Source: Tessaracoccus bendigoensis DSM 12906
Lineage (GTDB): Bacteria; Actinomycetota; Actinomycetes; Propionibacteriales; Propionibacteriaceae
Assembly: GCF_900141915.1 (NCBI RefSeq)
Contig: NZ_FQZG01000018.1
Coordinates: 1 to 62,198 of the forward strand
DNA: 62,198 nucleotides
Direction: 5' to 3'
Shown: in pieces, positions 12,009 to 29,337 of the stretch
How positions within the stretch are numbered: the stretch's first letter is position 1
Layout: every line of letters starts with the position of its first letter
Position numbers and translations under genes: made by a program
Notes under the pieces: generated by a model
The model's database searches: none
Told to the model about the DNA's origin: nothing
Seen by the model: the letters and a program-made list of their open reading frames with translations, nothing else

Positions 12009-12581
12009 TCAGCCCGGTCTGGCCCCGAAGTCCCTCACCAACGCCGGCGGGCCACCCCGGTACGGGCTCACCGACACCCTCGAGTGCCACTGGATCCCGG
12101 CGTGGTCGAGCGTCCACAACGTCACGCACGACGCGTCCAACTGGGCCTGCTGCGTGTGCTCGTAGACATACAACGTCTCACCGGTGGCCAGGTCCATCAC
12201 CCGGGTCCGCAGCGTACCGATGTTGCGCAGCGACGTCCCCGGCGTCTGCGCCGACATCGCAATCATGATCCGGCTCACCTCCGGGTTCAGCGCACCGAAG
12301 TCGACCATGATCTGCGCCCGGTCCGGCCCGACCGACTGGCCGGGCGACAGGTACGTCAGGAACGCGCTGCGATCCGGGTTCGTACGGCGCTGCCGGTAGA
12401 TGAAGTCCTGCTCGGTGGCCACCTTGTAGCCGACCCCGCTGCGGCGCACCAACAGCAGGGCGCACATGTCGATGTCCACGGAGATGTTGGTCCAGGTCGA
12501 GCCGATCAGCAGCCGCTGAACCGGCACGTTCCGATCAGTGACGAGCGGGACGGTGGCTCCCGCCAACAGTCGCTTCGCCAT
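12009..12581 (-). CDS. TerD-family protein
   Basis: A 190-aa beta-sandwich protein of the TerD family, calcium-binding proteins linked to tellurite, stress and phage-resistance loci. Visible family features are TWTNISVDIDMCALLL near the N-terminus, the segment DFIYRQRRTNPD, and VDFGALNPEVSRIMIAMSAQ, followed by MDLATGETLYVYEHTQQAQLDASCVTLWTLDHAG. The classical motif GWD...DLD is altered, so calcium binding is uncertain. The start codon overlaps the stop of the GTPase gene (TGATG at 12579-12583), so it is translationally coupled as the last gene of the operon. Confidence 0.8.
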   Translation of the reverse strand: MAKRLLAGATVPLVTDRNVPVQRLLIGSTWTNISVDIDMCALLLVRRSGVGYKVATEQDFIYRQRRTNPDRSAFLTYLSPGQSVGPDRAQIMVDFGALNPEVSRIMIAMSAQTPGTSLRNIGTLRTRVMDLATGETLYVYEHTQQAQLDASCVTLWTLDHAGIQWHSRVSVSPYRGGPPALVRDFGARPG

Positions 12582-13552
12582 CAGCGCACCCCGATCTTCT
12601 TGGTCAACGCCGCCTGCAGCACGTCGAGCACCCTGAACGGCACGATCCCGCCCCGCCCGACGGTCGACGCGTTCGGCTCCGAACCCAGCGCCGACGTCGC
12701 GAACAGCCGGTATGGGATCTGCGCCTCCGCAGCCGCCGTCAGCAACATCCCGGCGCCCATCTGGCCGAGCAGGCCGTGCAACTCGTGTTGCAGCAGGTCC
12801 GCGTCCTGCCGATTGTCGAACTCGCTGACCATCGACGGGTCCCGTTGCAGCGTAGAGCCCGGCCGGTTGAAGATCGACTGCCAAGGTGAAGCCGACAGCT
12901 CACGCATCCGCTGCAACACGTCGAACTTGCTGAGCACGATGCCCAGCACCTGCTCCGGCCCGCCCTGCTGACGGTGCGCCGCGCGGGCGGCGAGCACAGA
13001 ACGCAGCACCTCCAGGTCGTGCCCGGAACCGCGGGGCACCGTGACGACGCCCTCGAGCACCGCGGCGACCCCCGGCACCTTCAGCGGGTCGACCATCGAG
13101 ACGATCAGGTCGGCGAACCCCAGGTATCTGAACTGCGCGTCCGACGGCGCCAGTGACTCAAAGTCCTCTCCCGCGGCGTCGATGATCGAAAGACACACTC
13201 TCTGGCCGCCGTATTCGAAGCTCCACATCAGGGGTTCGAGGCCCTGGTCACGCACCGGCGGCGTGGGGGGAAGCAGGTTGCGCTGCTCAAACAGCGGCTG
13301 CCTGTACTTGTGCTCGAAGCGGTCCTTGGTGGTACCCAAAGGATTCAGGAAGCTCTGGTGCCGTTCCCCGAGGAAGTATTCGAACTGGTCCATCATCACG
13401 CCGATGAGCACCGACTTGCCCGCCGTCCTGGCTCCAGTGATCGCGAGCGCCAGCGGTGTTGAGGCAAGCCATTCGACGGGCACATCGAACTTGCAGGACG
13501 GGCAGGCGCCCGTCGAGGTCACGGCCCGATAGCAACTGGGGCACACCGTCAT
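12581..13552 (-). CDS. Zinc-ribbon P-loop GTPase (DO-GTPase2-like)
   Basis: A 323-aa protein starting with a zinc ribbon (C4, C7, C17, C20). A GTPase domain follows with P-loop GARTAGKS (40-47), Walker B/G3 IIDAAGEDFE, and a G4-like SKFD specificity motif. It resembles the TRAFAC-type GTPases that computational surveys place at the core of predicted conflict systems together with GAP1 and vWA proteins; the Pfam name is from memory. It probably acts as a nucleotide switch for the complex. The start ATG overlaps the vWA gene's stop by four bases (13549-13552), and its stop overlaps the TerD start. Confidence 0.75.
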   Translation of the reverse strand: MTVCPSCYRAVTSTGACPSCKFDVPVEWLASTPLALAITGARTAGKSVLIGVMMDQFEYFLGERHQSFLNPLGTTKDRFEHKYRQPLFEQRNLLPPTPPVRDQGLEPLMWSFEYGGQRVCLSIIDAAGEDFESLAPSDAQFRYLGFADLIVSMVDPLKVPGVAAVLEGVVTVPRGSGHDLEVLRSVLAARAAHRQQGGPEQVLGIVLSKFDVLQRMRELSASPWQSIFNRPGSTLQRDPSMVSEFDNRQDADLLQHELHGLLGQMGAGMLLTAAAEAQIPYRLFATSALGSEPNASTVGRGGIVPFRVLDVLQAALTKKIGVR

Positions 13553-14571
13553 GAGACCACCTTCGGGAAGAGGGCATCGGCCAGGTCGGGCGCCTGGGCG
13601 ACCGCGGCCGCAAGGTCGGTCGTCGACACCAATCGCACGTTGTCGAGCGCAGCCAGCTCATCGAGCGCGGCCAACTCCTCGTCCCAGAACTGAACGGCGC
13701 GATCCTCAGGCCGCAGCCCGTGCCGTGAACGGCCGACCACAACCACCAGCATCGGGGTGGCCGACTCTGCCGCGAACGCCGTCAACTCCCGGTAATCGAC
13801 CGGCACGCCGTCGAGCAGTAGCGCGACCCTGCGTCCCCCGGCCGCAGCCTGCCGCACCGCCCGGGTCACCCGCGGCCACGGGGCCGGGTCGTGGCCGAGC
13901 GTCTGGTCCCAGTCGATCGTCTCCACGTCCAGCTCCCCCACCACGTCACGCACCGGCTCGGTGGCGAGCAGCACCCCGCCCGGCAGGTTCCCGAACGCGG
14001 TGGCGGCGATCCCCGTCAACGTCTCCACGAACGACCCGATCCCGGGGCGACGCGCCTCCACCAGGATCGACGCCGAGGCGTCCAGCACGACCGCCCACGC
14101 CACGTCCGCTGTCGTCGCGTCCTGATGGTTGACGTGATAGGCGTACGCTCCTGGCCTCAGCCATGCCCTCGACCAGGCGCCCTCATCCGAGCGGCGCCCG
14201 TCGGCGAACACGTCGGTGAGCACCCCGTCGACGCCGAGCCGCACCAGCGTGACGTTGTGGTGTCCGCCGACCTCGGCCGCGGGTCGCACGATCTCGCTGC
14301 CCACACCCGCGGGGCTGCGGAACGACACCCCGATGCGGGTGCCGGAGGCGAACGGCAGCCCGGTCGACGACTTCGCGCCGATGAGCAGCTCCTTGCCAGG
14401 GACCACGACGACCTCGTTCGCCGAGACCCGGAACTGCGGCTCGACGACCTCACCTCCCGGCCCCGTCAGGAGCACCTGCGCCGGCCCGGTGGTGCTCAAC
14501 CTGATCGATACCGCCCCGGACGGGGCCTGCGCGACTCCCCCCGGCGCAAGCTGCACGATTCCGGCCATCAT
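13549..14571 (-). CDS. Soluble vWA-domain protein
   Basis: A 340-aa protein whose first 150 residues look like a beta-rich domain (SIRLSTTGPAQVLLTGPGGEVV). A von Willebrand A domain then begins at VVLDASASILVEARRPGIGSFVETLTGIAA, where DASAS is the MIDAS DxSxS motif. A helical C-terminus follows. No signal peptide is present. vWA proteins of this kind usually assemble with NTPases through a metal-dependent contact. It overlaps its neighbours on both sides by four bases, so production should be stoichiometrically coupled with the GAP1-like protein and the GTPase. The start is at the first of two adjacent ATG codons. Confidence 0.75.
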   Translation of the reverse strand: MMAGIVQLAPGGVAQAPSGAVSIRLSTTGPAQVLLTGPGGEVVEPQFRVSANEVVVVPGKELLIGAKSSTGLPFASGTRIGVSFRSPAGVGSEIVRPAAEVGGHHNVTLVRLGVDGVLTDVFADGRRSDEGAWSRAWLRPGAYAYHVNHQDATTADVAWAVVLDASASILVEARRPGIGSFVETLTGIAATAFGNLPGGVLLATEPVRDVVGELDVETIDWDQTLGHDPAPWPRVTRAVRQAAAGGRRVALLLDGVPVDYRELTAFAAESATPMLVVVVGRSRHGLRPEDRAVQFWDEELAALDELAALDNVRLVSTTDLAAAVAQAPDLADALFPKVVS

Positions 14572-15926
14572 CGGTCCTCTCGATCGGTGGCATGCGGCTG
14601 CAGAACCGCCGCAATGTCGCGCGCGGCCTGACGGAGTTCCTCCGGCTGCGCGGCGACCTGTTCAGTCAGCTGCCCCGAGAGCAGCAGTCCACGGACATCG
14701 ATCCCGGCACGGCCGAGCGCGGCCGCGCCGACAAGCGCGGCCACCAGCGGATCCGCCTCACCCGTGTCAGGGCCGACGATCTCGGTCGGCATCGAATAGA
14801 CGTCGAGGTCGGCTGCGGGAGAGGCACCGGGGGCAGGCAGCCCGACCTCTTCGGCCAGCGCGACCAACTCGTCCCAGCGGAGCACATCGTCGTTGACCGC
14901 GCCCAGCAGCTGCCGGATCGGGTCGACCCGGGCCAACTCCTGTGCACCGGGTGTCGTGAGCCACGCGGCCTGCAGGAAGATCAGTTCGTCGCGCACCATC
15001 AGCGGATGCCCGGCGGCGATGTAGCGCCTGATCATCTCGTCACGTTTGGTGAAGACGGCCTGGGCGACCTCCCGGTCGGCATAGACGAGGTCGACGGCTA
15101 GCCCCGTTATCCGGGACGCCGCCATCGACTGCCCGGTCGGGAGCAGCCAGTGCCCCGTCCGGGCCGCCTCCTCGGCGTCAAGCTGCCAACTGACGTCGAT
15201 CTGGGGCAACCCGCGCAGCGACGCCGGGTCGAGGGGGGCGTCGACCGTCACCAGCACCGGCGTGGTCGCAAGCTGCTCCACCGCGGTGTGCGGATCCTCA
15301 CCGATCCTGATGCGCACCTGCCCGGCCAGGTCGGAATCCAGCAACCAACTGAGTACCGAGACCCACCGTGCGGCCTCCTCGGTCGACGGCGCCACCAGCA
15401 ACACCCGCCGCGTGTCGAGGAGGAGGGCGAAAGCGACGTCGACGATCCACCGGATCCGGGCGATCCGGCCGGGGTCGGCACGCAGCCACCTGGCGGTGTC
15501 GGCCCAGCCTCCGGGCGCGGTGAGCCGGTCGGGAAGTCGCGTCTCCGCGATCTGGCGTGGCCCGAATGGCGCCGCCCAGCCCTCCGCGAAGAACCAGTCG
15601 ACGGGGCGCACCCCGTCCACGGCCTCGACCAGTGCACAGTGCGAGACGACGTTGCCGGGCCGACCGGTGTGGTCCGTGCCCGCCTCGGCGCTGCGACAGG
15701 CCGCGTACAGCGACCCCTGTGGGTCGCTCCGGAACCGGACGGCGCGGGTGGCCAACTGCCAAGCCGATGGGAACTGCGGCAACGTCACGGGGAGCGCGAC
15801 GCTGGTCAGTGCCAGCAACGCCTTCCTGGTCTCGGGCGTTAGGTCCGGGGTCGCCTGCAGCGTGCCCCAGCCGCCGACGCTGCGCCCGGTGATCTGGTCG
15901 GCGCTGCCGTAGAGAAGCTGCTGCAT
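14568..15926 (-). CDS. GAP1-like GTPase-associated protein
   Basis: The 452-aa product begins MQQLLYGSADQITGRSVGGWGTLQATPDLT, the typical start of GTPase-associated protein 1 (GAP1-N2, then a middle domain). This family is found next to small GTPases in predicted prokaryotic conflict systems. Segments such as FRSDPQGSLYAACRSAEAGTDHTGRPGNVVSHCAL and RVLLVAPSTEEAARWVSVLSWLL support the assignment. I chose the ATG at 15926, 19 codons inside the longest frame, because family members start there and it overlaps the upstream stop codon (TGATG). The name implies association with the GTPase; a GTPase-activating role is not shown by sequence. Confidence 0.75.
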   Translation of the reverse strand: MQQLLYGSADQITGRSVGGWGTLQATPDLTPETRKALLALTSVALPVTLPQFPSAWQLATRAVRFRSDPQGSLYAACRSAEAGTDHTGRPGNVVSHCALVEAVDGVRPVDWFFAEGWAAPFGPRQIAETRLPDRLTAPGGWADTARWLRADPGRIARIRWIVDVAFALLLDTRRVLLVAPSTEEAARWVSVLSWLLDSDLAGQVRIRIGEDPHTAVEQLATTPVLVTVDAPLDPASLRGLPQIDVSWQLDAEEAARTGHWLLPTGQSMAASRITGLAVDLVYADREVAQAVFTKRDEMIRRYIAAGHPLMVRDELIFLQAAWLTTPGAQELARVDPIRQLLGAVNDDVLRWDELVALAEEVGLPAPGASPAADLDVYSMPTEIVGPDTGEADPLVAALVGAAALGRAGIDVRGLLLSGQLTEQVAAQPEELRQAARDIAAVLQPHATDREDR

Positions 15927-18160
15927 CACACCGTCACCTCGAGCGTGCCGACCGGCGGGTCGAGCACCGCCACCGCGCCACAATCGGCCGGTGGCAGGTT
16001 CACGAACAGCCGAACGAACGCCAACGTCGGCCCGGCCGGCAGTTCGCCGACGAACGTGTGGATCCCGGCCCGCAGCGACACCACCGGTTGAGCCAGGAGC
16101 CTGCCGTCCTGCGGGTGCAGCGGGAGGCGCCCGAGCTGCCCGACGATCGCCAGTGGCGTGTCGTGCAGGTCGTCGTCGACCTGGGCGTAGATCCGGTAGC
16201 TTGCCGGGCGCGTTCCTGCCTGGGCGGGTGAGGAATCGGGACCGTAGGGCACCACCTGATACTGGAGCCGTGTGATGCCCGGATAGTCGAGCGAGGTCGC
16301 CTCGGAGTACATGGGCATGCCGTCGAGGTAGACCACGCCGTATAGATGGATGGCGCAGCCGTTGGACGGGAGCGTGCGGGTGATGCGCATGCCGCCCATG
16401 GTGATGTACTCGTCGCGGGTCAGCTGCGCGATCGGCTCAGACCCGGCCGGGTCGACACCCTGACCCCGCGGCCCCTGGTAGGCCTGCACCACCGTGACGC
16501 CCTCGGGCCACGAGAACGTGATGATCTCGGAGTCGACGCGCTCGACGATCGTCGCGTGGGTAGGGGCGTGCGGGGTGACCATCGAGACGGCCGGGCCGAC
16601 CCACACCGACTCGTCCGAGACCCAGTGGACTGCGACAAAGTGCGCCCGAACCCAGCCAGGGTCGACGGCGTACCCGGTGATCGTCATCAGCCCGCCGAGA
16701 TCGGTCGGCGGGCTGACGATCCGGAACTCTGGGGTCAGCCCCTGGCCCTCGACGATCTCCCTGGTGCGCGGCACGTCCTCGAGCCCGTGCGGCGGCCGTT
16801 CCGGGGTCGCGAACAGCACCACCCGCCCGTGCCTCGGTGCCAGCCACGAGATGTCGAAGGTGCCGGGGGTGCTGGTCGACCTGGCGACCGACACCTTGAT
16901 CTGCTGCAGTTCGGGAATGACGTGGGCCTCCGCCGTGACGGGCCGCGACACCATCGAGGTCCCGTCCGCCAGCTCAGCGACGCAGAACGCCGCGTAGACG
17001 ATGTCCTCCCCCATCGGCGGGTTGAGGTCACGGAAGCCGGTCACGGAGACCAGTTCCCGGTCCAGTTCGCGGTTTATGTCGTAGCTGACGGTGGCTCCCT
17101 TCCGGAACCGCTGGACCTCTACCCTGCTGCCTTCCGGCGTGCTCAGCAGCGCGACGACCGTCCGGTTCGCCGTCACCTGGACGGTGAGGCCGGAAGGGGG
17201 CCAGACGACCTGCGCGACCCCGACGAGCCGCGGCTGCGATCGGGTCGCGTCCAATAGTGAGTCACCCTGGTTGACCCAGACTGCCAGGTAGGTCACCGGG
17301 CCCGAGGGATGGATCTCCGCCGTTCCGGAGGTGGCCGTGGTGACACCGACCAGGCTGCCCAGCTCGGGTGCCCCGCTGGGCCAGTTCGATGCGGACTCGA
17401 CGACCCGGTACAGCGTGACGGCGGCCCTGGTTGGGACGGGGCTCCAGAACAGCTGCACGCCGTCGTCGCCGAGTTCTGCGGAGAGGTGCCCGTAGGCCTC
17501 CGCGCCACCGTACGCCCAGGAGAAGGGCGCGAACTGTGGCGTGCGCTGCCAGACGAACGGGGGGAACGGGTCGGTCTCGATGGGTTCGGGCGGTGTCACC
17601 TGCTGCGCCGCGGGCTCCTCGGGTGCCGCCTGTTCCGGCTCGTCCTCCTCCGGGGCGCCGCTCAGCACGGCGGCGACCTCCGTGGCGTGGGCCCGCACCG
17701 GCGCCTGCGCGGAGAGCCGCGCCGCCACCGCCTCCACCTCGGCCCGGGTCGTCGCCCCGCTGGAGGCCAGCCGCGCCAGGTCCTGGTCCCCGATCTGCTG
17801 GACGGCACCGTCCGGGTGGACGGAACTCCACTCCAGCAGACGGCGGAAGCGATCCTCGGGGCTCTGGCTGAGCGTTGTCGGCTCGACTCCGGCAGGTTCC
17901 GCCTCCGCCTCAGCCACCTCCGCTTCGACGGGTTCGGCAGCTGCCCTGGCCGGTTCCGGCGGGCCGTCGAGCGTCGGCGCCAACTCGTTGAAGATGTTGA
18001 GCAGCGTGTCTCGGTTCTCCCACAGGATGTGTTCGGCGACGTTGCGCAGCCTGATATCGAGGTGCCCCCAGAGTTCGAGGTCGCGTTGCGACGGCATGGC
18101 CCCGCCCCGCGCCCTTGCCGCCTCGACCAACCACCGGGCCCGGTCTGATCCGCTGCTCAC
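15926..18160 (-). CDS. Multi-domain Fn3-like/beta-sandwich protein
   Basis: A 744-aa protein with a short helical N-terminus (about 1-60) and an Ala/Glu/Pro-rich linker (about 65-195). Several successive beta-sandwich segments follow that read like fibronectin-III folds (VQLFWSPVPTRAAVTLYRVVES, FDISWLAPRHGRVVLFATPERP, IITFSWPEGVTVVQAYQGPRG). There is no signal peptide or membrane segment, so it is probably a cytoplasmic scaffold rather than a secreted adhesin. It starts with GTG at 18160 and overlaps the upstream stop by four bases. I cannot assign a molecular role beyond presumed scaffolding in this complex. Confidence 0.65.
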   Translation of the reverse strand: MSSGSDRARWLVEAARARGGAMPSQRDLELWGHLDIRLRNVAEHILWENRDTLLNIFNELAPTLDGPPEPARAAAEPVEAEVAEAEAEPAGVEPTTLSQSPEDRFRRLLEWSSVHPDGAVQQIGDQDLARLASSGATTRAEVEAVAARLSAQAPVRAHATEVAAVLSGAPEEDEPEQAAPEEPAAQQVTPPEPIETDPFPPFVWQRTPQFAPFSWAYGGAEAYGHLSAELGDDGVQLFWSPVPTRAAVTLYRVVESASNWPSGAPELGSLVGVTTATSGTAEIHPSGPVTYLAVWVNQGDSLLDATRSQPRLVGVAQVVWPPSGLTVQVTANRTVVALLSTPEGSRVEVQRFRKGATVSYDINRELDRELVSVTGFRDLNPPMGEDIVYAAFCVAELADGTSMVSRPVTAEAHVIPELQQIKVSVARSTSTPGTFDISWLAPRHGRVVLFATPERPPHGLEDVPRTREIVEGQGLTPEFRIVSPPTDLGGLMTITGYAVDPGWVRAHFVAVHWVSDESVWVGPAVSMVTPHAPTHATIVERVDSEIITFSWPEGVTVVQAYQGPRGQGVDPAGSEPIAQLTRDEYITMGGMRITRTLPSNGCAIHLYGVVYLDGMPMYSEATSLDYPGITRLQYQVVPYGPDSSPAQAGTRPASYRIYAQVDDDLHDTPLAIVGQLGRLPLHPQDGRLLAQPVVSLRAGIHTFVGELPAGPTLAFVRLFVNLPPADCGAVAVLDPPVGTLEVTV

Positions 18161-18924
18161 CAGGTCGCCCCAGGACGCTGCGTGCCGTTACCCTGGCCCG
18201 TACCCCACGGTGACGGCGGTTGCTGCCCGTTCGACTGCGGTGGCCCCTGCCACTGTGGTTGCGGAAGCTCCTGCTGCGGCGGTGCGGGCGCAGGGCGCAC
18301 CTTCAACCCGAACGGGAGCACCAGCACCGAGACGTAGGCCGTGATCAGCGCCACGAGCGCGACCCAGCCACCCGGCCCGATGTAGACGGTGATTTCGGCG
18401 CCGGAGCGGGCCTCGTCGACGAAGAGCCCGGCAGGGCCGAACAGGTAGGTCGACGCTGCAAGGATGCCCCCGATGACTGCGACGAGGATCCCGGTGGCCA
18501 GCGCGACCGGCACCCCGCCGCGGAACAGCAACCCGATCGAGCTGAGCAGCAGGCCGAGGGCCAGCACCCAGATCAGGATGGCGATCACGACCACCTCGTT
18601 CGGCGAGTATACGAACGGCTGCCCGTCAGCTCCGGTGCCGCTGACCCAGGGCAGCCAGATCGAGACCAGCACCATGAGGCCGGCCACGAACAGCATGACC
18701 ATCGAATAGCGGGCCGGGCCGGTGTTTCGGGGCTCCCCCGACGGCTGGTTCTTGAGGAAGAGCAACCCGAACCACGGCAGGAAGAACGCCGGCAGCAGGC
18801 CGTGCCACCAGGGTCGGCCCGAGCGCCGAGACAGCGCGATCCCGAACATCGCGGACGGCACCGCGTTGATCAGGTAGAAGATCACCACCGCGGTGAAAAA
18901 GTGTGCATTCAACCAGTCAGTCAT
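18157..18924 (-). CDS. Five-helix membrane protein with Pro/Gln/Trp tail
   Basis: A 255-aa protein with about five transmembrane helices (for example FFTAVVIFYLINAVPSAMFGIAL, YSMVMLFVAGLMVLVSIWLPWV and VVVIAILIWVLALGLLLSSIGLLF). It ends in a low-complexity tail rich in Pro, Gln, Gly and Trp (PQWQGPPQ to the PGATW end). The tail resembles those of the vWA membrane protein (DPWAGGG repeats) and the N-terminus of the first operon protein, hinting at a shared docking mode. It lies 12 bases downstream of the preceding gene and overlaps the Fn3-like gene by four bases. I know of no named family. Confidence 0.65.
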   Translation of the reverse strand: MTDWLNAHFFTAVVIFYLINAVPSAMFGIALSRRSGRPWWHGLLPAFFLPWFGLLFLKNQPSGEPRNTGPARYSMVMLFVAGLMVLVSIWLPWVSGTGADGQPFVYSPNEVVVIAILIWVLALGLLLSSIGLLFRGGVPVALATGILVAVIGGILAASTYLFGPAGLFVDEARSGAEITVYIGPGGWVALVALITAYVSVLVLPFGLKVRPAPAPPQQELPQPQWQGPPQSNGQQPPSPWGTGQGNGTQRPGATW

Positions 18925-18936
18925 GGCTTTCTCCCC

Positions 18937-21567
18937 CTACACGAAGCCGTCGGTCGACGGTCGGACCGGCACCGGACCATCATCGGGCGCGGGCGCCCCG
19001 GCGAACTGCCTGGCAGCGAAGGCGCCGCCGACCTGCACCACCACCAGTGCGACGTCGAGGCCGGTGGCCTCCTCCTGTGCCATGGTCTCACTCACCTGTC
19101 GGATGTCGACGACACCGCCTGCCGGGTTGAACATGCCTGGCTGGAATGAGCCGAGCACGCCAGATCGGTCGAGCCCCTCGATGAAGTCGGTGCGTGACAC
19201 CTCGTGCGGCCGTCCGAGCGAGTCACGCACCATGACGCGGCTGAGGAGACGGTCCCTGGCCGCGTCGTCGCTGCGGGTGAGCTGCACGATCCGCTGCGCC
19301 GTCTCCGGCGGCAGGGGCCGGGTGGCGGAGGCTTCGGCGAGCGCGATGCTCCACCTGGTCAGCACCGGGACGCCGTCGATTGCCGGATCGTTGCCTAACA
19401 GATTCGGATCCTGTTGCAGCAGGTGGCGCAGGTTCCCCAGGCTGGGCGGCAGGTTCGCCTTGTTGGCGCTCCAGGCTTCTGAGAGCCACCCGACCCTGAA
19501 CAGTTCCCCGCGCCAACGGTTCGCGACCTCCTCGACCGCCTCCCCGTCCGGCACCGCGACCCCGACCGCTAGGTTGAGGGGCATGCCTTGGCCGATGTGC
19601 AGGCGGCGTTCGGCCGAGGCCCCGGCGTGCCCCAGGGGGGCATGGATGAAGGCCCCGAACACCCTCGACCAGTCGAGATACTGCCGGTAAGCGCGGCTTA
19701 TGCGCCGCAGATCCTCCAGCGCCTCGAGTCGGTGCCTGGTGGCATCCTCAAGCTCGGTGGTCGCCGCCCGGAGCCGGTTCAGCCAGGCGTACAACCTGGC
19801 CGAGGCCTTGACGTGCATCCAGGCGCCCACCCCGGCCCAACCGACGATGACCAGCATCGTCGTGAGGATCAGCCAGGGCCACGCGAACACGGAAAGCGCT
19901 CCGAGCGCCGCGAAGATCGCGAGCAGGGACACGGCCACCGCCGACATCACCCGCACGTTGCTTGCCAGGCGGTCCTGGTCTTCCTGGATGGCCTCCGGCG
20001 CAGGCGGCTGCGCGCTGAGCCGCTCCACGAGGGCCGTGAGGTCCTGCACCTCGGCGATCGTCGCCCGGTGCGCGTCTCCCAACCGGCGTCCGATGTGGCC
20101 CGAATAGGAGCCCCGCACCCGGGTGGCCCACTCGCGTAGCCGGTTCCGCTCGGTGCTGATGGCCTGCGCGAGATGCGGCTGGGCCTGCGCGAGGTGGTCG
20201 AGCCGCTCGAACAGCCGTCCGACGGCGATGTCGTCGCCCGCCTCGATCCGCCAGTTCGGGAGGAATGCGGCCAGGTTCGCGGGCAGGGTGAAGGCGTCGG
20301 AAGGGTCGGTGCCGACCCGGTCGGTCGTGCTGATCACCGCCCGCTGCGAACCGAGCGTCCACGGCGGCAGCTCCGGGGAGCGGTGTCCGCCGTCGAGGAG
20401 GGTGAGGCCGCCGGCGACGAAATCCTCCCAGAGCTGCGGCTTCTGCGGGACGGGTTCGAGCTCACCGCTCACGACCGTCCGCCGGAGGACCGAGTCGAGC
20501 GACTGCTCATACTCGGCCCAGGTGGCCGATGAGCCGTCTGCCCTCACGCCGCGCACCACGACGGCGAACCCCGAGTCCGCGCCTCCGAAGACCGCGTTCT
20601 GCACGGCACCCGCGGCGACTTGCGAAACGGAACGGTCGAAGGCGTCGAGCGCGTTCTTCGGGGCGTTGGCGAGGGCCGAAGCGGCGAAAGAGACAAACCG
20701 CTTCACTGCCTCCCACGCACCGATCTTCTGCTGTGGGGGCGGCGGGGTGCGGTGCCGGACGCGCGGCATGACGTCGGCGTGCTTGCCGAGCAGTTGTTCG
20801 GCCATCGCGACGGCTTTGGCGGCCTCGTCGTCGATCGACCGGGCGTAGCTGTTGTCCACGCGGGGCGTCGGATAACGGTCGTGTACCGAGACGAGGTGCG
20901 CGGCCAGCGCGTCCTGCACCGAACCCGACGACAGCGAGCGGCTGAACGCACGCACCGGCACGATCAGGCCGCCGCTGGGGGCCTGCCGGTCGTCGAATGG
21001 GGCCTTCTCCTGCCCAGGCCACAGCGCGGTGAGGGAGCAGAGCGTGCCGGTCAGGAGCAGCAGCCAGCGCGGGTCGTCGAGCGAGCGGGTCACTGGCGCC
21101 GACCCTTGCGAGGGTGCCACTGACTCCTCGGGTGAGATCGCCAGGTTGTTCCAGCCAAACAAGGTGAGCGCCCTGGTCGACCATTCGGCTCCCGGGCTGC
21201 CTGCCGACACGTTGAGCTGCACGGTGGGAGCGTCGGGCACGCTCTGCCTGACGGCCTCCAGCACCCCGGCGGCCTGCCGCTGGTCGACGGCGGTGGCGTC
21301 CTCGTCGACCACGCCGACCACCACGACCCTGATCCGCGTGACCCTGGTGTGCGCCAGATCCTGCTGCAACGCGACGGTGTCGACGCCGTCGCCCCCGAGC
21401 ACGGCGGCAGGGATCGTCGGGTCGTCGGCCCGGACCGAATCGAGGTCGACGATGCGGCAGGGGCTGACCAACCCCTGCACCGTCCAGTCGTGCAGCACCG
21501 CCTGCAGCGCGACGGCCACCGGCCGCCGCGCCGCGATCACAACAACGTCAGACCCAGACCACGTCAT
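18937..21567 (-). CDS. Large membrane-anchored protein of the GTPase/tubulin operon
   Basis: An 876-aa protein of no recognised family. The N-terminal third has alternating strands and helices. A helical region (about 480-545) then leads into two adjacent transmembrane helices (roughly 545-600, VMSAVAVSLLAIFAALGAL and PWLILTTMLVIVGWAGVGAW). An Arg/Glu-rich coiled-coil-like stretch follows (LNRLRAATTELEDATRHRLEALEDLRR) and then a large soluble C-terminus. This topology would place both soluble parts on the same face. The gene overlaps the tubulin-like gene by 20 bases (21548-21567), which argues for coupled expression and physical partnership with it. Confidence 0.65.
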   Translation of the reverse strand: MTWSGSDVVVIAARRPVAVALQAVLHDWTVQGLVSPCRIVDLDSVRADDPTIPAAVLGGDGVDTVALQQDLAHTRVTRIRVVVVGVVDEDATAVDQRQAAGVLEAVRQSVPDAPTVQLNVSAGSPGAEWSTRALTLFGWNNLAISPEESVAPSQGSAPVTRSLDDPRWLLLLTGTLCSLTALWPGQEKAPFDDRQAPSGGLIVPVRAFSRSLSSGSVQDALAAHLVSVHDRYPTPRVDNSYARSIDDEAAKAVAMAEQLLGKHADVMPRVRHRTPPPPQQKIGAWEAVKRFVSFAASALANAPKNALDAFDRSVSQVAAGAVQNAVFGGADSGFAVVVRGVRADGSSATWAEYEQSLDSVLRRTVVSGELEPVPQKPQLWEDFVAGGLTLLDGGHRSPELPPWTLGSQRAVISTTDRVGTDPSDAFTLPANLAAFLPNWRIEAGDDIAVGRLFERLDHLAQAQPHLAQAISTERNRLREWATRVRGSYSGHIGRRLGDAHRATIAEVQDLTALVERLSAQPPAPEAIQEDQDRLASNVRVMSAVAVSLLAIFAALGALSVFAWPWLILTTMLVIVGWAGVGAWMHVKASARLYAWLNRLRAATTELEDATRHRLEALEDLRRISRAYRQYLDWSRVFGAFIHAPLGHAGASAERRLHIGQGMPLNLAVGVAVPDGEAVEEVANRWRGELFRVGWLSEAWSANKANLPPSLGNLRHLLQQDPNLLGNDPAIDGVPVLTRWSIALAEASATRPLPPETAQRIVQLTRSDDAARDRLLSRVMVRDSLGRPHEVSRTDFIEGLDRSGVLGSFQPGMFNPAGGVVDIRQVSETMAQEEATGLDVALVVVQVGGAFAARQFAGAPAPDDGPVPVRPSTDGFV

Positions 21568-24500
21568 GCTTGACTCCCTGATCGTCCACCCCTGCCGCCT
21601 GCGCCAGCTGCTTCAGCCGGTCGAGCGCCGGCAACGCCAGCGGCGCGAGCTCGGAGAACAGCGACATGCGGCGCATGCCGTCGACGTCGAGCCTGAGCTG
21701 CAGCGCCCTGACGGTGGCTTCGTCGCCTCCCCATTCGGCGGCCAGCATCCCCTTGAGCCCGTCGATCCAGTTGCAGGTCGCCTCGACCCTCGCCGCCGCC
21801 GTGTCGGCCGGGGTGGCGCCCGCGGGCACCGAGGTCAGCACCTGTGAAAGCCCGTCGCCTTCAAGGGTGACCCCTCCGAGGGTGAACGGCTGGTCATAGA
21901 ATGCCGCGTGCAGCAGCGTCGTGCCGTTCAGGCTCTGGTCGGGCTTGGACTGCTCGTTGCTGTCGGCACCGTCGATCAGCAGCCGCAGCCCCTCGTAGGG
22001 GGCCAGCGGAGTCAGGTCCGGGTCGCCGACGCAGGCGACGAACGCCCGGGTGTGGCTCATCAGGACCCCCGCGAGCACGTCGTGTGGGGTGCGGATGGCG
22101 GTCTCCTCCGAGGTGAGCAGGTCCCCGAAGCGGACCCATCCACGCGGGGTGCGCACCTCGGCCGTGCCGTAGGCGTCCTGCCGGACGAGCCCGACCAGGC
22201 GCCCGAGATACCAGCCAGCGATGATCGTCTTGGCCTCCTCGGTCGACATCCCGAGCGCCGCGTAGAGGGGCCGGGTGCGCTTCCACTGCCACAGGTCCCG
22301 CTGCGCGGTGATGGGGGACGCGGCCCAGCGCGCGTTGATCGGTTCGAGCAGCGACGTGAAGCACATCGGCGAGACCTTCTGGTACGAGCCGAACACGTTG
22401 ACCTTGCCAGCCGTCGACAACGCCCCGGACAGGGCCGTCTTGAAGTTGTCGATCGACGTGGACTCCAACTCGGGTTTGCCGCCAAGCTGGCTGACGACCT
22501 GGTCGGCGACCGGATGCGTCGCCTCGAGCGGGATCTCGGAGAACGAGTACACGAACCGGACATCCACGCCGTGGAGCCGCTTTGCCATGTCGATGTCGAC
22601 ACCGACGACGGGGCGGGCCTTGTCCATGGTCTCGATCAGCTTGGCGGCGAACCCGTCGTGACGCAGCTGCCGGTCGATCGGCGTGACCGCCGGGTCGTCG
22701 AGATAGTCGGAGATGGAGGCCCCGGCGAAGTTGGCGAACACGTCACCCACCGCCGCCAGGCGAAGGGTGGCGCGGCCGAGCAGGTCGACCGAGTCGAGCC
22801 GCAGCGAGTAGGAAGGCTTGGCCTCCGGGGTCGGGGTGCCGTCAGCCGCACGGTTGGGTAGCACCGAGGGTCGCCAATGGCTGACCTGCTGAAGCACGTC
22901 CTGCGCGACCTTCGAGCCGGTGGTCTCCCACCGCCCGGCGATCGCCTCCGCCCTGAGCTTGCCGAGGCCCTGCCGGTAGTCGGCGAACCCGCCGGCCGAC
23001 GACACGACGTCGCTGCGGAACTGCGCCGGAAAATCGTCGGCCGTCGTGAGCAGCACCTCATTCTCGGCATGGTTGAAACGCTGCGGCACCCGCTCGGTCT
23101 CATCCGGCCAATCCGCGTAGACCGCGGAGTTCAGCTGCGCGAGGCCTGCCCCGCCCGAATCCCTGGCGCGTTCGACCTCGAGCGTGTGGAGCGAGTCGTT
23201 GGCGGCCTTCTCAAGCCCGCCGAGGACGTCGGTGGCGAAGGCGCGCAGCACCCCGGCCCCGACCCGCGCGCCCTCCCTGCGCAACACGTTCTCCATCGCG
23301 CCCTGCAACGACCGGGCGGCCAACTGGCCCAGCGGATGCGTGAAGTCGACGGGCTTCTTGCCGAGCAGTTGCGCCTGCTGCCCGACGCCCGAGTCGAGCG
23401 CGACGGGGTCGGCGGCGTCGGCGGTCCGACCTGCCTCGGCCAGCTGGCCGATGATCTGGTCCGCGAGCATCCGCACCCTGGTCATCAGCTCGCGGCCGTA
23501 CGGCAGGCCGAAACCGGCCACCACGCGCAGGAACTCGGCCTTCACCGCCTCCTCGAGTTGGTAGGCCCACTGCTCACCCCAGGCGTAGGCGGCGTGCTGC
23601 AACTGGTAGCGGGCCTGTTCGCGCAGCGCCCCCACCGATGAGGCGACGGTGCTGACCCACTGGGCGGCCGGCGCCGAGCCGGAGTTGCCCATCATCGCGA
23701 CCCCCGGCGCCGCCGCGTCGCGCGCCGCAGCCTCCCAGTGCGGCCGCGGGAAGGCGACCGACTGGAACCAGTCGGGGACCGGTTGCCCGAGCTGCGGTAG
23801 CCCAATTGCCACGAGTGAGGAGCCGATCTGGTTGTCCATCAGCATCCGGAGCTGGTCGTTTCCGGGCAGTTGGCTTGTCGGGTTCAGGTGCCCTTCCACC
23901 AGGTGGTCCGACGCGGTGCGCGACAGGCGCTGCGCGGCATAGTCGAGGTAGCGGTCGCGGCCGAGTGACAGGCTCGCGAACCCGAGCGACCCGAACGGCA
24001 GCGCGCGGCGGTCCGCACGCCAACCGAACCGGTTGGTCGTGGAGTCCAGCCACTGGGGGTTGCCGAGCATGAAGTCGACATACTGGCTGGTGGCTGCCTC
24101 GGACATCATGGTGCCGGCCAGCGCGCGGGCGATCCCGCGGTAGACGCCGTCGGAGGAGCCGTCGCCGAAGAAGGCACCGTCGCCGCCGATGCGCCGTCCG
24201 ATCGGGAACACCCGTCCGAACGGCGGGTTGCCCGACGTGAACGGCACGCCCAACCGCTGGTAGGTCTCGCGGTCGAACGGCTCACTCAACCTGGTGATGG
24301 CCCCCAGGATCTCCGGCATGGCGCCCATCGCGTTGCCTTCGACGTTGGCGCGCTGGCCCGCGGTCAGTTCCGCGAACACGTCCGCGGTGAACATGAAACA
24401 GCCGATGTTCTGCGGCTTGACGCCAGGCAGCGAACCGAGCACGCGGCACACGTCGAGGAACATCGAGGCGCCGGAGCCTCCTGCCATCGAGCCGACCACG

Positions 24501-25009
24501 ATCGGGATGATCACGTTGCTGGTCTGTTCCTTGCGGGGGATGTCGCCCCAGGCGTTGGGCGCGACCGCCCGCGCCTGCGATGCGACCAGCGTCTCGTGCA
24601 GCGTGGTCAGGCGCGGCAGCGTGAGCATGCGGCCGACGGCCCGGTACTGGCCGGCCCCGTTGTTGACGGGGATGCCGTTGGCCGTCTCCCTGTCGCGGGG
24701 CGCCCAGCCCATCAGTGGGGCGAAGTTGTTCCCCTTGGAACCGAGCTGCGCCTCGACTGCGTTGGCGGTGGCGAGGTAGGTGTTGGTCGGCGACGAGAAC
24801 GACACGTACTGGCCGCCCAGGTCGCGGATGCTGCCGAGCGGCGCCGGCCCCTTGTCCGGGTCGACCGGCACGTCGATGTGTACGAACTGCCAGGCGTCCG
24901 GGAGGGAAGTGATGCCGCGGGCGCGCAGGTCGGCCCTCAACTGGTCGATCAGCAGTCGAACGGTGCGGCCGCCGGAGCCGCCGCAGCCGACAATCAGGAA
25001 CCTACGCAC
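21548..25009 (-). CDS. Tubulin/FtsZ-like GTPase (Tubulin_2-type), 1153 aa
   Basis: The N-terminus MRRFLIVGCGGSGGRTVRLLIDQL is the nucleotide-binding start of tubulin/FtsZ-like folds. The T4-type glycine loop GSMAGGSGA (about 173-181) follows at the right distance and is followed by a helix. At 1153 aa it is far longer than FtsZ (about 400 aa). The remainder, mostly helical, resembles the large tubulin-like proteins found beside vWA genes in actinobacteria. It may polymerise, or act as a GTP-dependent switch in a membrane complex with the vWA protein; neither is shown. Translation starts at GTG, 33 bases after the preceding stop codon. Confidence 0.8.
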   Translation of the reverse strand: MRRFLIVGCGGSGGRTVRLLIDQLRADLRARGITSLPDAWQFVHIDVPVDPDKGPAPLGSIRDLGGQYVSFSSPTNTYLATANAVEAQLGSKGNNFAPLMGWAPRDRETANGIPVNNGAGQYRAVGRMLTLPRLTTLHETLVASQARAVAPNAWGDIPRKEQTSNVIIPIVVGSMAGGSGASMFLDVCRVLGSLPGVKPQNIGCFMFTADVFAELTAGQRANVEGNAMGAMPEILGAITRLSEPFDRETYQRLGVPFTSGNPPFGRVFPIGRRIGGDGAFFGDGSSDGVYRGIARALAGTMMSEAATSQYVDFMLGNPQWLDSTTNRFGWRADRRALPFGSLGFASLSLGRDRYLDYAAQRLSRTASDHLVEGHLNPTSQLPGNDQLRMLMDNQIGSSLVAIGLPQLGQPVPDWFQSVAFPRPHWEAAARDAAAPGVAMMGNSGSAPAAQWVSTVASSVGALREQARYQLQHAAYAWGEQWAYQLEEAVKAEFLRVVAGFGLPYGRELMTRVRMLADQIIGQLAEAGRTADAADPVALDSGVGQQAQLLGKKPVDFTHPLGQLAARSLQGAMENVLRREGARVGAGVLRAFATDVLGGLEKAANDSLHTLEVERARDSGGAGLAQLNSAVYADWPDETERVPQRFNHAENEVLLTTADDFPAQFRSDVVSSAGGFADYRQGLGKLRAEAIAGRWETTGSKVAQDVLQQVSHWRPSVLPNRAADGTPTPEAKPSYSLRLDSVDLLGRATLRLAAVGDVFANFAGASISDYLDDPAVTPIDRQLRHDGFAAKLIETMDKARPVVGVDIDMAKRLHGVDVRFVYSFSEIPLEATHPVADQVVSQLGGKPELESTSIDNFKTALSGALSTAGKVNVFGSYQKVSPMCFTSLLEPINARWAASPITAQRDLWQWKRTRPLYAALGMSTEEAKTIIAGWYLGRLVGLVRQDAYGTAEVRTPRGWVRFGDLLTSEETAIRTPHDVLAGVLMSHTRAFVACVGDPDLTPLAPYEGLRLLIDGADSNEQSKPDQSLNGTTLLHAAFYDQPFTLGGVTLEGDGLSQVLTSVPAGATPADTAAARVEATCNWIDGLKGMLAAEWGGDEATVRALQLRLDVDGMRRMSLFSELAPLALPALDRLKQLAQAAGVDDQGVKHDVVWV

Positions 25010-25042
25010 AGGTGCTTCTCCTCGTTCGGATGTACTGGTCGA

Positions 25043-27706
25043 TCACCAGGAGTTGGGCCCACCGGTCGGGCGCTGCCCACCGGGAGGATTCGCCCACGGA
25101 TCGTTGACGGTCGGGTTCGTCGGTTGGGCCCACTGGTCGCCGGTCGGCGCCGAGGCACCGCCGCCCGCCCACGGATCGGCTGCGGGCGTCGGGGTGCCAC
25201 CACCCCCTGCCCACGGGTCGGCAGAGGGCGCACCCTGCTCGGGCGGCAGGCCCGCACGCAGCTTGGCGACGGCGGTTCGGATGTTGGCCCGCACGTCCTC
25301 GAGCAGCTCGCTGAAGCCCGGGGAGCCTGGCGCGGTGAACACCGTCACCTCGACCGCACCGCCGACGGGGCGCTGCGGGTCGAGCGCGACCATCCAGTTG
25401 CCCTGCACCGCGAGCGGCAGCCTGGCGTTACCGCCGACCGACTGCAGACTCGTGCGGCCGCCTGCCGAGGGCCCTGGGGTGTCCACGACGACGTAGCCGG
25501 GCTCGGTCGGGGCCGCCCCCATCTTCGCCTTGAGGGTCTTTCCTGCGACGGTGACCTCACGGCGGTTGTTGGTCAGGTGCGCCACCGTCAGGTTTGCAAC
25601 GTTCAACGGGACACCGTTGTCGGTGAAGGCGTGCGCGTCGTCGACCGGGCCGTAGGCGCTGCCCGCCAGAACGGCGGTGCCTGGGATCTTCGAGGTGAGG
25701 AACTTCACCAGGTAGAGGATCGCGACGGGGATCGCGACCCCGAGCAGCGTGATGAGGATCAGTGTCGACCACAGCACCGGCTGCGAAGCGGGGCGGCTCT
25801 GGCTGAGGTCGAAGGCGAGGTCTGCGACGACGGGCTCAGCGGACGAATCCGCCGCGGCCAGCGTCACCCTCGTCGACCCGATGAACGAGCCGTTGCCGAG
25901 GCCACCGGGGTCGAGCGTCAACTCCAGGCTGCCGGAGGTACACGACGCGCGGTCGGTCGCCGGTGAGGTGAGCTTGGCGTCGCCGAGGCCCTCGGGGTAG
26001 CCGGTGAACCTGGTCTCGTCGGACAGCCAGGCGCAGCCCGCACCTTCGAGGGGGACCTGGATGGTGACCGGGTCGGCGGTTTCGGTGTGGCCGAAGCTGA
26101 CCTTGTCCGGCAGGGTCGGGAAGTCGGCTGGGGGCAGGATGTTCAGCGGGATCGACGCGTGCCTGGGTTCGAGCCGGGTACCGGGGATCGTCGTGCCACC
26201 CTCCTCCCACGACTGGGTCGTGACGTCGAGGGTCAGCACCAGTTCTGCAACCCCCGGGTTGAACCCGTCGAGGTCGAGCTCGATCGGGTCCTCCATGTCT
26301 GCCTTGACGAGGCCCGAGGCCAGCTGGGTCGTCTCCCCGCCGCTGATCAGCTTGACGCCGAGCACGGTCTGGTCCGAAAGGGTTGCGGGGTCGATGCGCT
26401 GTCCGAGTCGGTCGACGGTGCCGAGTTGGAGTTCGGCCGGGGCCTCCCCGATGCGCAGGTCGAGCTGATCCCGGTTGACCAGGACGGGCGAGATGTCGCC
26501 CTTCAGCGTGATCGAGGAGCGGGCCAGCTCGTCGCTCTGCTCGTCTGCGACGAACACGATGCCCCAAGGGCCGGCCCAGTTGTCGGGACTCTCGCGCGTG
26601 AGGTCGAGGGTCAGCACGCGCGGCGTGACCCATTCCCAGGTCAGCGTCGAGCCGCCGAGGTCGCGCTCCCCCGTGCCTTGCGTCAGCTCGATGTTCTCGC
26701 CGCTGCGGGTCTTGAGGTAGATGCGGGTGCCGTCGACCGGCGCCTTTGCGGTCGCATTGACCGCCCCGATGGAGCCGTCGAGGACGAAGGTTCGGGTGCC
26801 CTCAGGACACTCGGCGTCGACGCAGGGCTTGTTCTCTCCGCCTTCGCCGGTGTTGATGGCGGTGATGAAGTCGTAGATCAGGTCGTCGACCCCGGTCGCC
26901 ATGATGAACTCGCCGGGGGTCGGGGAGGTGTTCTCACCACAACCGGCCCCGGTGCTGATCCCCTGCATCAGCTCAAAGCTCTCGGGTGGGGAGTCGACCG
27001 CCAGCCCGATGCCGATCGTGATGATGTCGAGGGACCGCAGCTGGTCGGCCAGCCCTCCGGCGCGGCAGAGGTCGTTCCGGCCGGCGGTCAGGGCGGCGTC
27101 GATGTCGGCTTCCGTCCGCAGCCGGTTGTCCGGCACCCAGGCCTTCGGGCCTCCCCACTTCTGCATCTCGGAGTCGTTGGCTCGCTGGTTGAGGTTGAAC
27201 TCCCCGTCGGAGAACCACATCAGGAGGTTGCATGGCGTCTTCTGGTCCTGGGCGCGCGCCGAGAACTCCCTGCGCACCCCGTCCATCGCCGTCCAGTAGT
27301 CGGTGTCGACGCCGTCGATCTTGTTCGCGAACTGGTCGAGGTTGCCGTTGATGGTGCCGAGGTTGTCGGCGGTCAGCGGGGTCCAGCCGAGGGAGGGTTC
27401 GAAGGTGGTGCCGAAACCGGCGACGGCAACATCGACCTCGCCGGGCACGTCGGTCAGGGACTCGGCCAAGCGGGTGACGGTCGCCGAGGCCGCCTTCACG
27501 CGTCCGGCGTCAGGATCGGTGTTGAACAGCGAACCGGAAGTGTCGATCAGCATCAGGACGTTGCCTTGGCCACCACCGTTGATACAGGAGGCGAACCTCT
27601 CCACCGGCTGCAATTCCTCTGCGTGGGCCGGTGGCGCCCCGATGCCGCCGACGGCGACCAGAGCCCCGGCGACGGCCGCTCCGAACGCACCGCTCCAGCG
27701 CCTCAC
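25043..27706 (-). CDS. Exported, membrane-anchored vWA protein with DPWA-repeat tail
   Basis: An 887-aa protein with an N-terminal signal peptide (RRWSGAFGAAVAGALVAVGGIGA, then PPAHA and a cleavage site). A vWA domain follows with MIDAS DTSGS (55-59) and WFSDGEFN, then Ig-like beta domains. A single transmembrane helix comes next (VLWSTLILITLLGVAIPVAILYLV), and a cytoplasmic domain ending in repeated DPWAGGG-type motifs. The vWA domain would therefore face outside and the tail inside. I chose the GTG at 27706 because it overlaps the upstream stop (GTGA, 27703-27706) and gives a clean signal peptide. It is a likely sensor or adhesive component passing a signal to the tubulin/GTPase proteins. 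Confidence 0.75.
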   Translation of the reverse strand: MRRWSGAFGAAVAGALVAVGGIGAPPAHAEELQPVERFASCINGGGQGNVLMLIDTSGSLFNTDPDAGRVKAASATVTRLAESLTDVPGEVDVAVAGFGTTFEPSLGWTPLTADNLGTINGNLDQFANKIDGVDTDYWTAMDGVRREFSARAQDQKTPCNLLMWFSDGEFNLNQRANDSEMQKWGGPKAWVPDNRLRTEADIDAALTAGRNDLCRAGGLADQLRSLDIITIGIGLAVDSPPESFELMQGISTGAGCGENTSPTPGEFIMATGVDDLIYDFITAINTGEGGENKPCVDAECPEGTRTFVLDGSIGAVNATAKAPVDGTRIYLKTRSGENIELTQGTGERDLGGSTLTWEWVTPRVLTLDLTRESPDNWAGPWGIVFVADEQSDELARSSITLKGDISPVLVNRDQLDLRIGEAPAELQLGTVDRLGQRIDPATLSDQTVLGVKLISGGETTQLASGLVKADMEDPIELDLDGFNPGVAELVLTLDVTTQSWEEGGTTIPGTRLEPRHASIPLNILPPADFPTLPDKVSFGHTETADPVTIQVPLEGAGCAWLSDETRFTGYPEGLGDAKLTSPATDRASCTSGSLELTLDPGGLGNGSFIGSTRVTLAAADSSAEPVVADLAFDLSQSRPASQPVLWSTLILITLLGVAIPVAILYLVKFLTSKIPGTAVLAGSAYGPVDDAHAFTDNGVPLNVANLTVAHLTNNRREVTVAGKTLKAKMGAAPTEPGYVVVDTPGPSAGGRTSLQSVGGNARLPLAVQGNWMVALDPQRPVGGAVEVTVFTAPGSPGFSELLEDVRANIRTAVAKLRAGLPPEQGAPSADPWAGGGGTPTPAADPWAGGGASAPTGDQWAQPTNPTVNDPWANPPGGQRPTGGPNSW

Positions 27707-28149
27707 CGCCACGTCCCCCGGGCGACGTCGTTGGCGATGAACCAGGCACACAGCGTGACGGCCAGCAGAGCCACCACGATGAGGATGCGGCGGCCCCAGT
27801 CGGCCAGGCCTGACGGCGCATACCAACCCGATTCACGCTTCTTCGCATCGGTGACCGCGAACATGGCGACCGACCCGATGGCCAAGGGCCCAGCGAGAAC
27901 CCAGCCGATCAGGCCGGTGGTCGCCGTGCGGCCGATCAGGACGATGACGAAGGCCGCGAGGGTCAGCAGGAGGCCTATCCCGAGCCAGGCCAGGGGCGGC
28001 CGGTTGGGCGTGACGAGCTCGATCTGCGGACCGCCACCGAAGCCGTCGGAGGCCTGACGATCGTCGTACCGCGTCGTGGGGGATGCCCAGCCGCCGGGCG
28101 GGGAACCCGGGCCGGAGGTCGCCCCGTGACCTGGCTCTGCCCAATTCAT
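27703..28149 (-). CDS. Small membrane protein, first gene of the operon
   Basis: A 148-aa protein with a Gly/Pro/Trp-rich N-terminal region (about 1-50), two closely spaced transmembrane helices (LAWLGIGLLLTLAAFVIVLI and LIGWVLAGPLAIGSVAMFAV), and a third near the C-terminus (ILIVVALLAVTLCAWFI). I know of no family. It opens the operon: its ATG at 28149 has no clear ribosome binding site, and a TACATT -10-like hexamer sits 6 bases upstream, which would give a leaderless mRNA. Its stop overlaps the vWA start by four bases. Confidence 0.65.
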   Translation of the reverse strand: MNWAEPGHGATSGPGSPPGGWASPTTRYDDRQASDGFGGGPQIELVTPNRPPLAWLGIGLLLTLAAFVIVLIGRTATTGLIGWVLAGPLAIGSVAMFAVTDAKKRESGWYAPSGLADWGRRILIVVALLAVTLCAWFIANDVARGTWR

Positions 28150-28814: not shown

Positions 28815-29306
28815 TCAACTCCAGGTTTCGCCGTCCCACATCACCGGCTCATCGTTGCCAGCACAGCGGTGCTCGAGCAGGAGGCGAAGAACGTCGAGGG
28901 CGGTGTCGGGCTCGGAGCCGGTCAGCCGGATGACCAGGCCGGACTCCTTGTCGACAATGTCCACGACTTCTGCAGCTTCGGCTGGCTGTTCGAGAACGGG
29001 CTGAAGCGTGTGCTTTGACGTCGCCCGGGTGGACTTCTTTCGTCCGCGCAGCCAGGCAAGTGCTGCCTTCACCACGGACAAGGCCCGGTCTGCTGCGATC
29101 TCGCCGAACCTCTGCGCGAAGCCCGTGCCAACGAGGGTCAGGCACGCCACAATGACCACAAGTGTCTCGGACCGTGTCTGCTGGGCCATTCCTTGCCGGA
29201 CCGTCCAACCCCCGTCCTGCAAACGGATCGTAAGGTCTGCGCGGATCTCGTCGGACACGTCAGGGGCAAGAGACAGGAAGACGGTGGCGTCGTGGTTTGT
29301 GGACAC
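28815..29306 (-). CDS. Effector-associated (EACC1-like) single-helix membrane protein
   Basis: About 163 aa. A short alpha/beta domain (ATVFLSLAPDVSDEIRADLTIRLQDGGWTVRQG) is followed by a hydrophobic segment (TLVVIVACLTLVGTGFA), a basic helix (AALAWLRGRKKSTR) and a C-terminal segment (VVDIVDKESGLVIRLTGSEPDTALDVLRLLLEHR). This order matches the effector-associated constant component 1 proteins that accompany CHAT, caspase-like and other effectors in predicted conflict systems; I infer the same here from the divergent CHAT gene. The start is uncertain: GTG 29306 avoids overlap with the CHAT gene, whereas ATG 29327 or 29339 would overlap it. Confidence 0.6.
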   Translation of the reverse strand: MSTNHDATVFLSLAPDVSDEIRADLTIRLQDGGWTVRQGMAQQTRSETLVVIVACLTLVGTGFAQRFGEIAADRALSVVKAALAWLRGRKKSTRATSKHTLQPVLEQPAEAAEVVDIVDKESGLVIRLTGSEPDTALDVLRLLLEHRCAGNDEPVMWDGETWS

Positions 29307-29337
29307 GACGACAGTCTGCCAGAGCATGATGGGCACC

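Follow-up and report, generated by a model that had tools for sequence, protein, structure and literature searches.

A ten-gene operon on the minus strand fills positions 28149-12009 of the window, the 62,198-nt stretch of Tessaracoccus bendigoensis DSM 12906 (NZ_FQZG01000018.1) that was analysed here (Table 1). The ten open reading frames and their overlaps were found as the original prediction had claimed: 20 bases are shared by C/D, 4 bases by E/F, G/H and H/I, and 1 base by F/G and I/J, with gaps of 33 bases at B/C and 12 bases at D/E. The A/B overlap is contingent on the start codon picked for B, which is GTG 27712 or slightly inside; TerD and the GAP1 protein start at 12581 and 15926. 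The motifs named beforehand (DTSGS, GSMAGGSGA, GARTAGKS, DAAGED, SKFD and MQQLLY) are all present.

Table 1. Genes of the operon, in window coordinates
Gene	Position	Strand	Description	Basis
A	27703..28149	-	148 aa, about 3 membrane helices; core gene	hydropathy; no Pfam match
B	25043..27712	-	predicted exported vWA protein; core gene	VWA_2 2.7e-6, hydropathy, MIDAS
C	21548..25009	-	1153-aa tubulin-like protein (Tubulin_2/FtsZl1), G-box retained, large helical insert; core gene	
D	18937..21567	-	876-aa membrane protein, probably a second, degenerate tubulin; core gene	
E	18157..18924	-	255-aa polytopic membrane protein; addition in the window's clade	hydropathy
F	15926..18160	-	744 aa, sits where published systems have the FNIII component; core gene	
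G	14568..15926	-	452-aa GAP1-N2 protein; core gene	GAP1-N2 3.2e-17
H	13549..14571	-	340 aa, vWA-type MIDAS in second half; core gene	
I	12581..13552	-	323-aa zinc-ribbon DO-GTPase2; core gene	DO-GTPase2 1.9e-6
J	12009..12581	-	190-aa TerD; downstream addition in the clade	TerD 6.3e-14

Pfam searches confirmed all five families for which an HMM check had been proposed, VWA_2 (B), Tubulin_2 (C), GAP1-N2 (G), DO-GTPase2 (I) and TerD (J), each above cut-off, with VWA_2 (28.4 bits) and DO-GTPase2 (28.2 bits) barely exceeding the Pfam cut-off of 27; A, D, E, F and H had no match over the cut-off. At E <= 0.1, PADLOC matched none of the ten proteins apart from a single 0.053 match in A; this match aside, none of them resembled a described anti-phage defence family. 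NCBIfam gave weak matches only, none credible, for the ten proteins, and a PDB sequence search gave none for C and one match at 0.91 for I.

Pfam, hydropathy and the modelled fold together bear out a GTPase/GAP1/tubulin/vWA system of the predicted NTP-dependent conflict type. Systems of this kind have been published from comparative genomics. In the sections consulted, Makarova & Koonin 2010 (PMC2875224) describe FtsZl1-vWA-GTPase operons, and Kaur et al. 2020 (PMC7159879) describe a tubulin theme among GAP1-N2 GTPase systems, with DO-GTPase, GAP1-N2, a single tubulin, FNIII and membrane vWA components in actinobacteria. The earlier view that the combination is poorly described is therefore not supported. 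Like the FtsZl1 (Tubulin_2) family in the sections consulted, C has an N-terminal FtsZ-like domain with a G-box and a long helical part, and its gene is linked to genes for vWA, GTPase and membrane proteins. Consistent with the sections of Kaur et al. 2020 consulted, there is one tubulin gene with a long C-terminal part, a zinc-ribbon DO-GTPase with a Walker B glutamate, a GAP1 protein with the N2 domain, a membrane vWA protein and another protein filling the FNIII slot; as for the variable effectors of the theme, the eight-gene core is constant, and E and J vary. TerD and gene E are extra compared with the systems in those sections, where TerD appears once, for other systems. We conclude that the operon belongs to the GAP1-N2/DO-GTPase systems of the actinobacterial tubulin theme.

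The catalytic and structural motifs of the partner proteins were then compared among relatives. In GTPase I, P-loop residues G40, G45 and K46 are conserved in 70/70 rows, D125, A127, G128 and E129 (the Walker B glutamate) in 65/65, and K209 and D211 in 52/52; the zinc-ribbon cysteines are kept in 67/70, 55/70, 54/67 and 55/67. The MIDAS residues D56 and S60 of B are conserved in 74/74. Across the motifs of I, B and the tubulin-like C, some other letters, e.g. T57, A126, G173 and S179, vary. With its VWA_2 domain, a signal-like N-terminus and one membrane helix at about 641-675 by hydropathy, B is predicted to be exported, as had been proposed; the MIDAS D-x-S-x-S presumably lies outside and a C-terminal tail of about 210 residues inside. 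Hydropathy also gave more membrane proteins than the three claimed, since B has a membrane helix as well. Of the two vWA proteins anticipated, B was recovered by Pfam and H was not; H is assigned from its D-x-S-x-S column (D164 in 67/72, S166 in 66/72, S168 in 67/73) and is the most divergent of the eight core proteins (mean p-distance 0.755). GAP1-N2 was found in 30/30 members of G, and GAP1-M at 3.7e-4 in G, below cut-off, and in 27/30 members at E <= 0.01; no GAP1-C match was listed by Pfam for G or its 30 members. G is 452 aa long in the window versus 800-950 aa at many other loci, suggesting a short form in the window's clade. For F and 30 relatives (31 members), no Pfam match was obtained at E <= 0.01, and Pfam found neither FNIII nor HRDC in these members or in B. 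The earlier label of F as an Fn3-like scaffold is therefore without Pfam support, and the name derives from Kaur et al. 2020 (PMC7159879, sections consulted).

Conservation of the operon was assessed in named loci, the best 80 of at least 184 stretches encoding relatives, 45 of which were picked for diversity as a reference set. These loci were retrieved with an alignment of thirty tubulin-like proteins, chosen from 120 listed of 240 found, and the other operon genes were located by iterated HMMs. One locus (L019) was dropped from the counts as its genes are split over frames: in this T. coleopterorum assembly, several operon genes are broken into several frames each, perhaps by sequencing frameshifts. 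The complete core (A, B, C, D, F, G, H and I) occurs at 64/79 named loci, and 60/79 keep these eight genes in identical order (L019 excluded from both counts), indicating that the order is not shared by chance. Several of the 15 incomplete loci stop at a contig or fetch limit; L062 is without A and B despite 10 kb visible upstream. Gene A is present in 74/81 loci including the window, and F in 76/81. As gene positions were taken from stop-to-stop frames, the B-A swaps observed at four loci may be artefactual. Over 65 sequences, the distance matrices of the eight core proteins correlated at 0.67-0.96, or 0.29-0.92 without close pairs, suggesting that the core proteins travel largely as one block; the correlation was highest for B-D and lowest for the GTPase, the latter in part because many of its sequences are truncated where the locus ends. 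All ten genes had been expected to stay together elsewhere; only eight are shared, and E and TerD fall outside the core. The ten genes as a conserved unit were rejected, as E was found in 5/81 loci with the window counted; its named loci are records of Propionibacterium, Tessaracoccus and Propionibacteriaceae. E also occurs in genomes G296, G310, G314 and G323.

TerD lies after the GTPase in the window's clade and, in some other genera, upstream of the operon, in 15/66 loci with at least 4 kb visible upstream. Among genomes of the class, 7/40 contain TerD, in 1 to 16 copies each, and the single TerD match in the window's genome (G000) is J in the operon. In the upstream frames, TerC was found in 3/75 and StiP in 1/75. 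At L038 and L051 (Pseudarthrobacter and Arthrobacter), four opposite-strand TerD frames precede the operon.

Named genera that carry the operon include Corynebacterium, Mycobacterium, Rhodococcus, Nocardia and Gordonia, and its presence is patchy: relatives of C occur in 11/39 genomes of the genus, and Tubulin_2 in 10/296 genomes of the phylum sample. A Tubulin_2 match was also obtained in Corynebacterium glutamicum. In G314, G323 and G310, the operon sits between Lactonase and Rhomboid genes, with an M23 peptidase gene intervening in G314; in G296 it adjoins the Rhomboid gene. In G315 and G328, for which the search returned no C relative, the Lactonase and Rhomboid genes are about 1.1 kb apart, and in G333 an M23 gene adjoins the Lactonase gene. 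We read this as an accessory block gained or lost at one slot in this clade. The system in G298 is divergent (33% in C), lies over 500 kb away from the Lactonase gene of that genome and was probably acquired separately. Two distant Propionibacteriaceae loci have a Rhomboid gene close to the operon (L026:5244-5876 and window 36477-37376), reflecting either a shared slot or a functional partner. A phage or common plasmid element was rejected on record counts, with the operon in 0 of 50,697 phage records and 2 of 72,556 plasmid records, both Rhodococcus.

Two neighbouring genes of the window were also inspected. A divergent gene at 29008-31770 (plus strand) encodes a CHAT-domain protein (CHAT 5.4e-23); its one strong match in the genus, in G304, is on a different contig from the tubulin of that genome, and weak partial matches were found in G312, G317 and at a second place in G000. 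It was therefore rejected as a part of the system and is probably a separate gene. At 32052-33359 (minus strand) lies an ISL3-type transposase that shares 98% identity with a G333 copy over 418 residues, a recent mobile element beside the operon. Upstream of the operons, 75 of 173 listed frames were sampled. The 25 Pfam families listed of 137 are mostly metabolic or housekeeping, Ter genes included, and the 25 listed of 60 PADLOC families at 1e-10 match one frame each, JetC included; these counts, made without a background control, neither show nor exclude a defence neighbourhood.

C matched Tubulin_2 at 1.2e-40 over residues 5-366 of 1153, the one Tubulin_2 match in its genome. The tubulin glycines G177, G178 and G180 are conserved in 80/80 rows, and a pattern scan found T1 and T4 kept in 29/30 and 30/30 proteins; the canonical T7 sequence is absent from C among the aligned relatives. 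Both tubulin domains were modelled, in agreement with the tubulin fold originally predicted, and the model suggests a two-domain fold split by a large helical insert, which seems new. In the sections consulted, Kaur et al. 2020 (PMC7159879) treat the tubulin C-terminus as an uncharacterised helical domain, whereas here it is modelled as completing the tubulin fold; likewise, the FtsZl1 description (PMC2875224, sections consulted) leaves elements after H5 unplaced, without similarity to the second domain of FtsZ/tubulin, whereas our model places one after the insert. Profile comparison of C with FtsZ yielded local hhalign E values of 0.033 and 0.047, over 17 and 15 columns, and led no further; the same method, applied to C with D, F or G and to pieces, gave nothing useful either. 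C might instead be a switch or scaffold that binds GTP without ever forming filaments, in keeping with the lack of a canonical T7 sequence and with the large insert inside the fold; we consider this unlikely, as the model has both tubulin domains and C retains its T1 and T4 loops. In a different gene setting, L165:10515-14141 (minus strand) encodes two short adjacent Tubulin_2 proteins of 573 and 498 aa (E 9.1e-8 and 1.2e-8).

D stands immediately behind C in 78/78 loci holding both. Hydropathy places a transmembrane hairpin at about 534-580 within long helices; the orthologues in L067, L071 and L073 have only one membrane helix above threshold. The D alignment covered 38/45 references (L016, L043, L050, L062, L066, L071 and L092 were left out), and alignments A3, A4 and A5 were likewise built from part of their references. 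We propose that D is probably a second, nucleotide-blind, degenerate tubulin with a transmembrane hairpin, which seems new; the original prediction overlooked this possible kinship. In the deep relative L164, a Tubulin_2 protein occupies the D slot (the homologue scan covered 7/8 homologues, leaving out the fragment P0160), but fold and sequence evidence for tubulin identity on D itself is only moderate. That C retains the T1/T4 loops and D does not fits one active and one passive tubulin.

Alternatively, D may be no tubulin and instead an unrelated alpha/beta plus helical membrane scaffold, a reading we hold to be rather doubtful. A homologue search with D returned 39 proteins, none with a Pfam domain, and Tubulin_2 matched none of 39 D proteins; the T1 or T4 pattern, representing the nucleotide-binding glycine loops of the tubulin superfamily, was found in 0/39. 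No tubulin was among the Foldseek matches listed, hhalign gave a C-D probability of 0.7%, and a viral fold search with D returned nothing useful. The VIA ranking, the fixed place behind C and the Tubulin_2 protein in the D slot of L164 argue against an unrelated scaffold. As a second tubulin, D would depart from the sections consulted of Kaur et al. 2020 (PMC7159879), which count a single tubulin; the Firmicutes versions described there would then share two tubulin proteins per system, although D, compared by description only, differs in having membrane helices and no nucleotide loops. L172:5590-8838 (minus strand) encodes a 1083-aa relative of D with a C-terminal trypsin-like domain (Trypsin_2 1.3e-28), a protease fusion and possible effector. 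For actinobacterial systems, we tentatively propose, with slightly more doubt than belief, that a tubulin and a membrane-anchored, nucleotide-free pseudo-tubulin form an obligate pair, a counterpart of the tubulin heterodimer in which the membrane-fixed partner is the seed and assembly is licensed by a GTPase-GAP1 switch and an outside vWA sensor.

The gene set, its order, the motifs, the modelled folds and the shared inheritance were observed; the following scheme adds, by inference, the interactions, polymerisation, the way B and D sit in the membrane, the signal and the output. The metal-dependent vWA domain of B would lie outside, and an envelope or invader signal would pass through its membrane helix. 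D, a tubulin fold without nucleotide loops, would be anchored by a membrane hairpin that caps a helical stalk and would present a fixed tubulin end onto which C, with its GTP-binding loops, would add. GTPase I and its GAP1 partner G, with F and H as adaptors, would gate when assembly proceeds, and A, E and J would adjust it. The resulting structure, local and membrane-bound, would wall off, remodel or kill. Such membrane-seeded, GTPase-gated tubulin assembly in response to an envelope or invader signal is, in our judgement, about evenly poised between right and wrong.

Two published proposals were weighed against this scheme. Following Kaur et al. (PMC7159879, sections consulted), the operon would be an anti-invader (phage) conflict system, in which sensing by GAP1/FNIII proteins and a GTPase threshold switch lead a tubulin effector to contain the invader or kill the cell. 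Family membership, the patchy presence in the genus (11/39 genomes), the occupied and unoccupied versions of one site and the divergent copy at another site in G298 speak for it, but it appears improbable given the blank PADLOC result for the ten proteins (E <= 0.1, save the 0.053 match in A), the constant core with no recognised toxin and the phage and plasmid counts. The upstream families listed, mostly metabolic or housekeeping in Pfam (25 of 137) and matching one frame each in PADLOC (25 of 60), also weigh against it, both without a background control. The other proposal, a membrane-remodelling or vesicle machine serving envelope maintenance and not defence (Makarova & Koonin, PMC2875224, sections consulted), agrees with the several membrane components, the predicted exported vWA protein, the upstream TerC and StiP frames and TerD near the operon in 15/66 loci versus any TerD in 7/40 class genomes, although TerD reaches 16 copies in some genomes of the class and the loci lack independence. 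The system is absent from most relatives (28/39 in the genus and 286/296 in the phylum sample), suggesting that it is not essential, and we regard this proposal, too, as unlikely. On this evidence, defence and envelope remodelling look about equally likely to us.

Four features were not found in our search of open-licence papers: the completion of the split tubulin fold in C, the reading of D as a pseudo-tubulin, the nearly fixed order of the eight genes and the repeated occurrence of TerD beside the operon. The operon is spread over many named genera, yet no experimental study of such an operon was found among open-licence papers. If D is a pseudo-tubulin, a direct prediction is the membrane-seeded assembly of C on D; if true, this would help to separate the published guesses of membrane remodelling and conflict.
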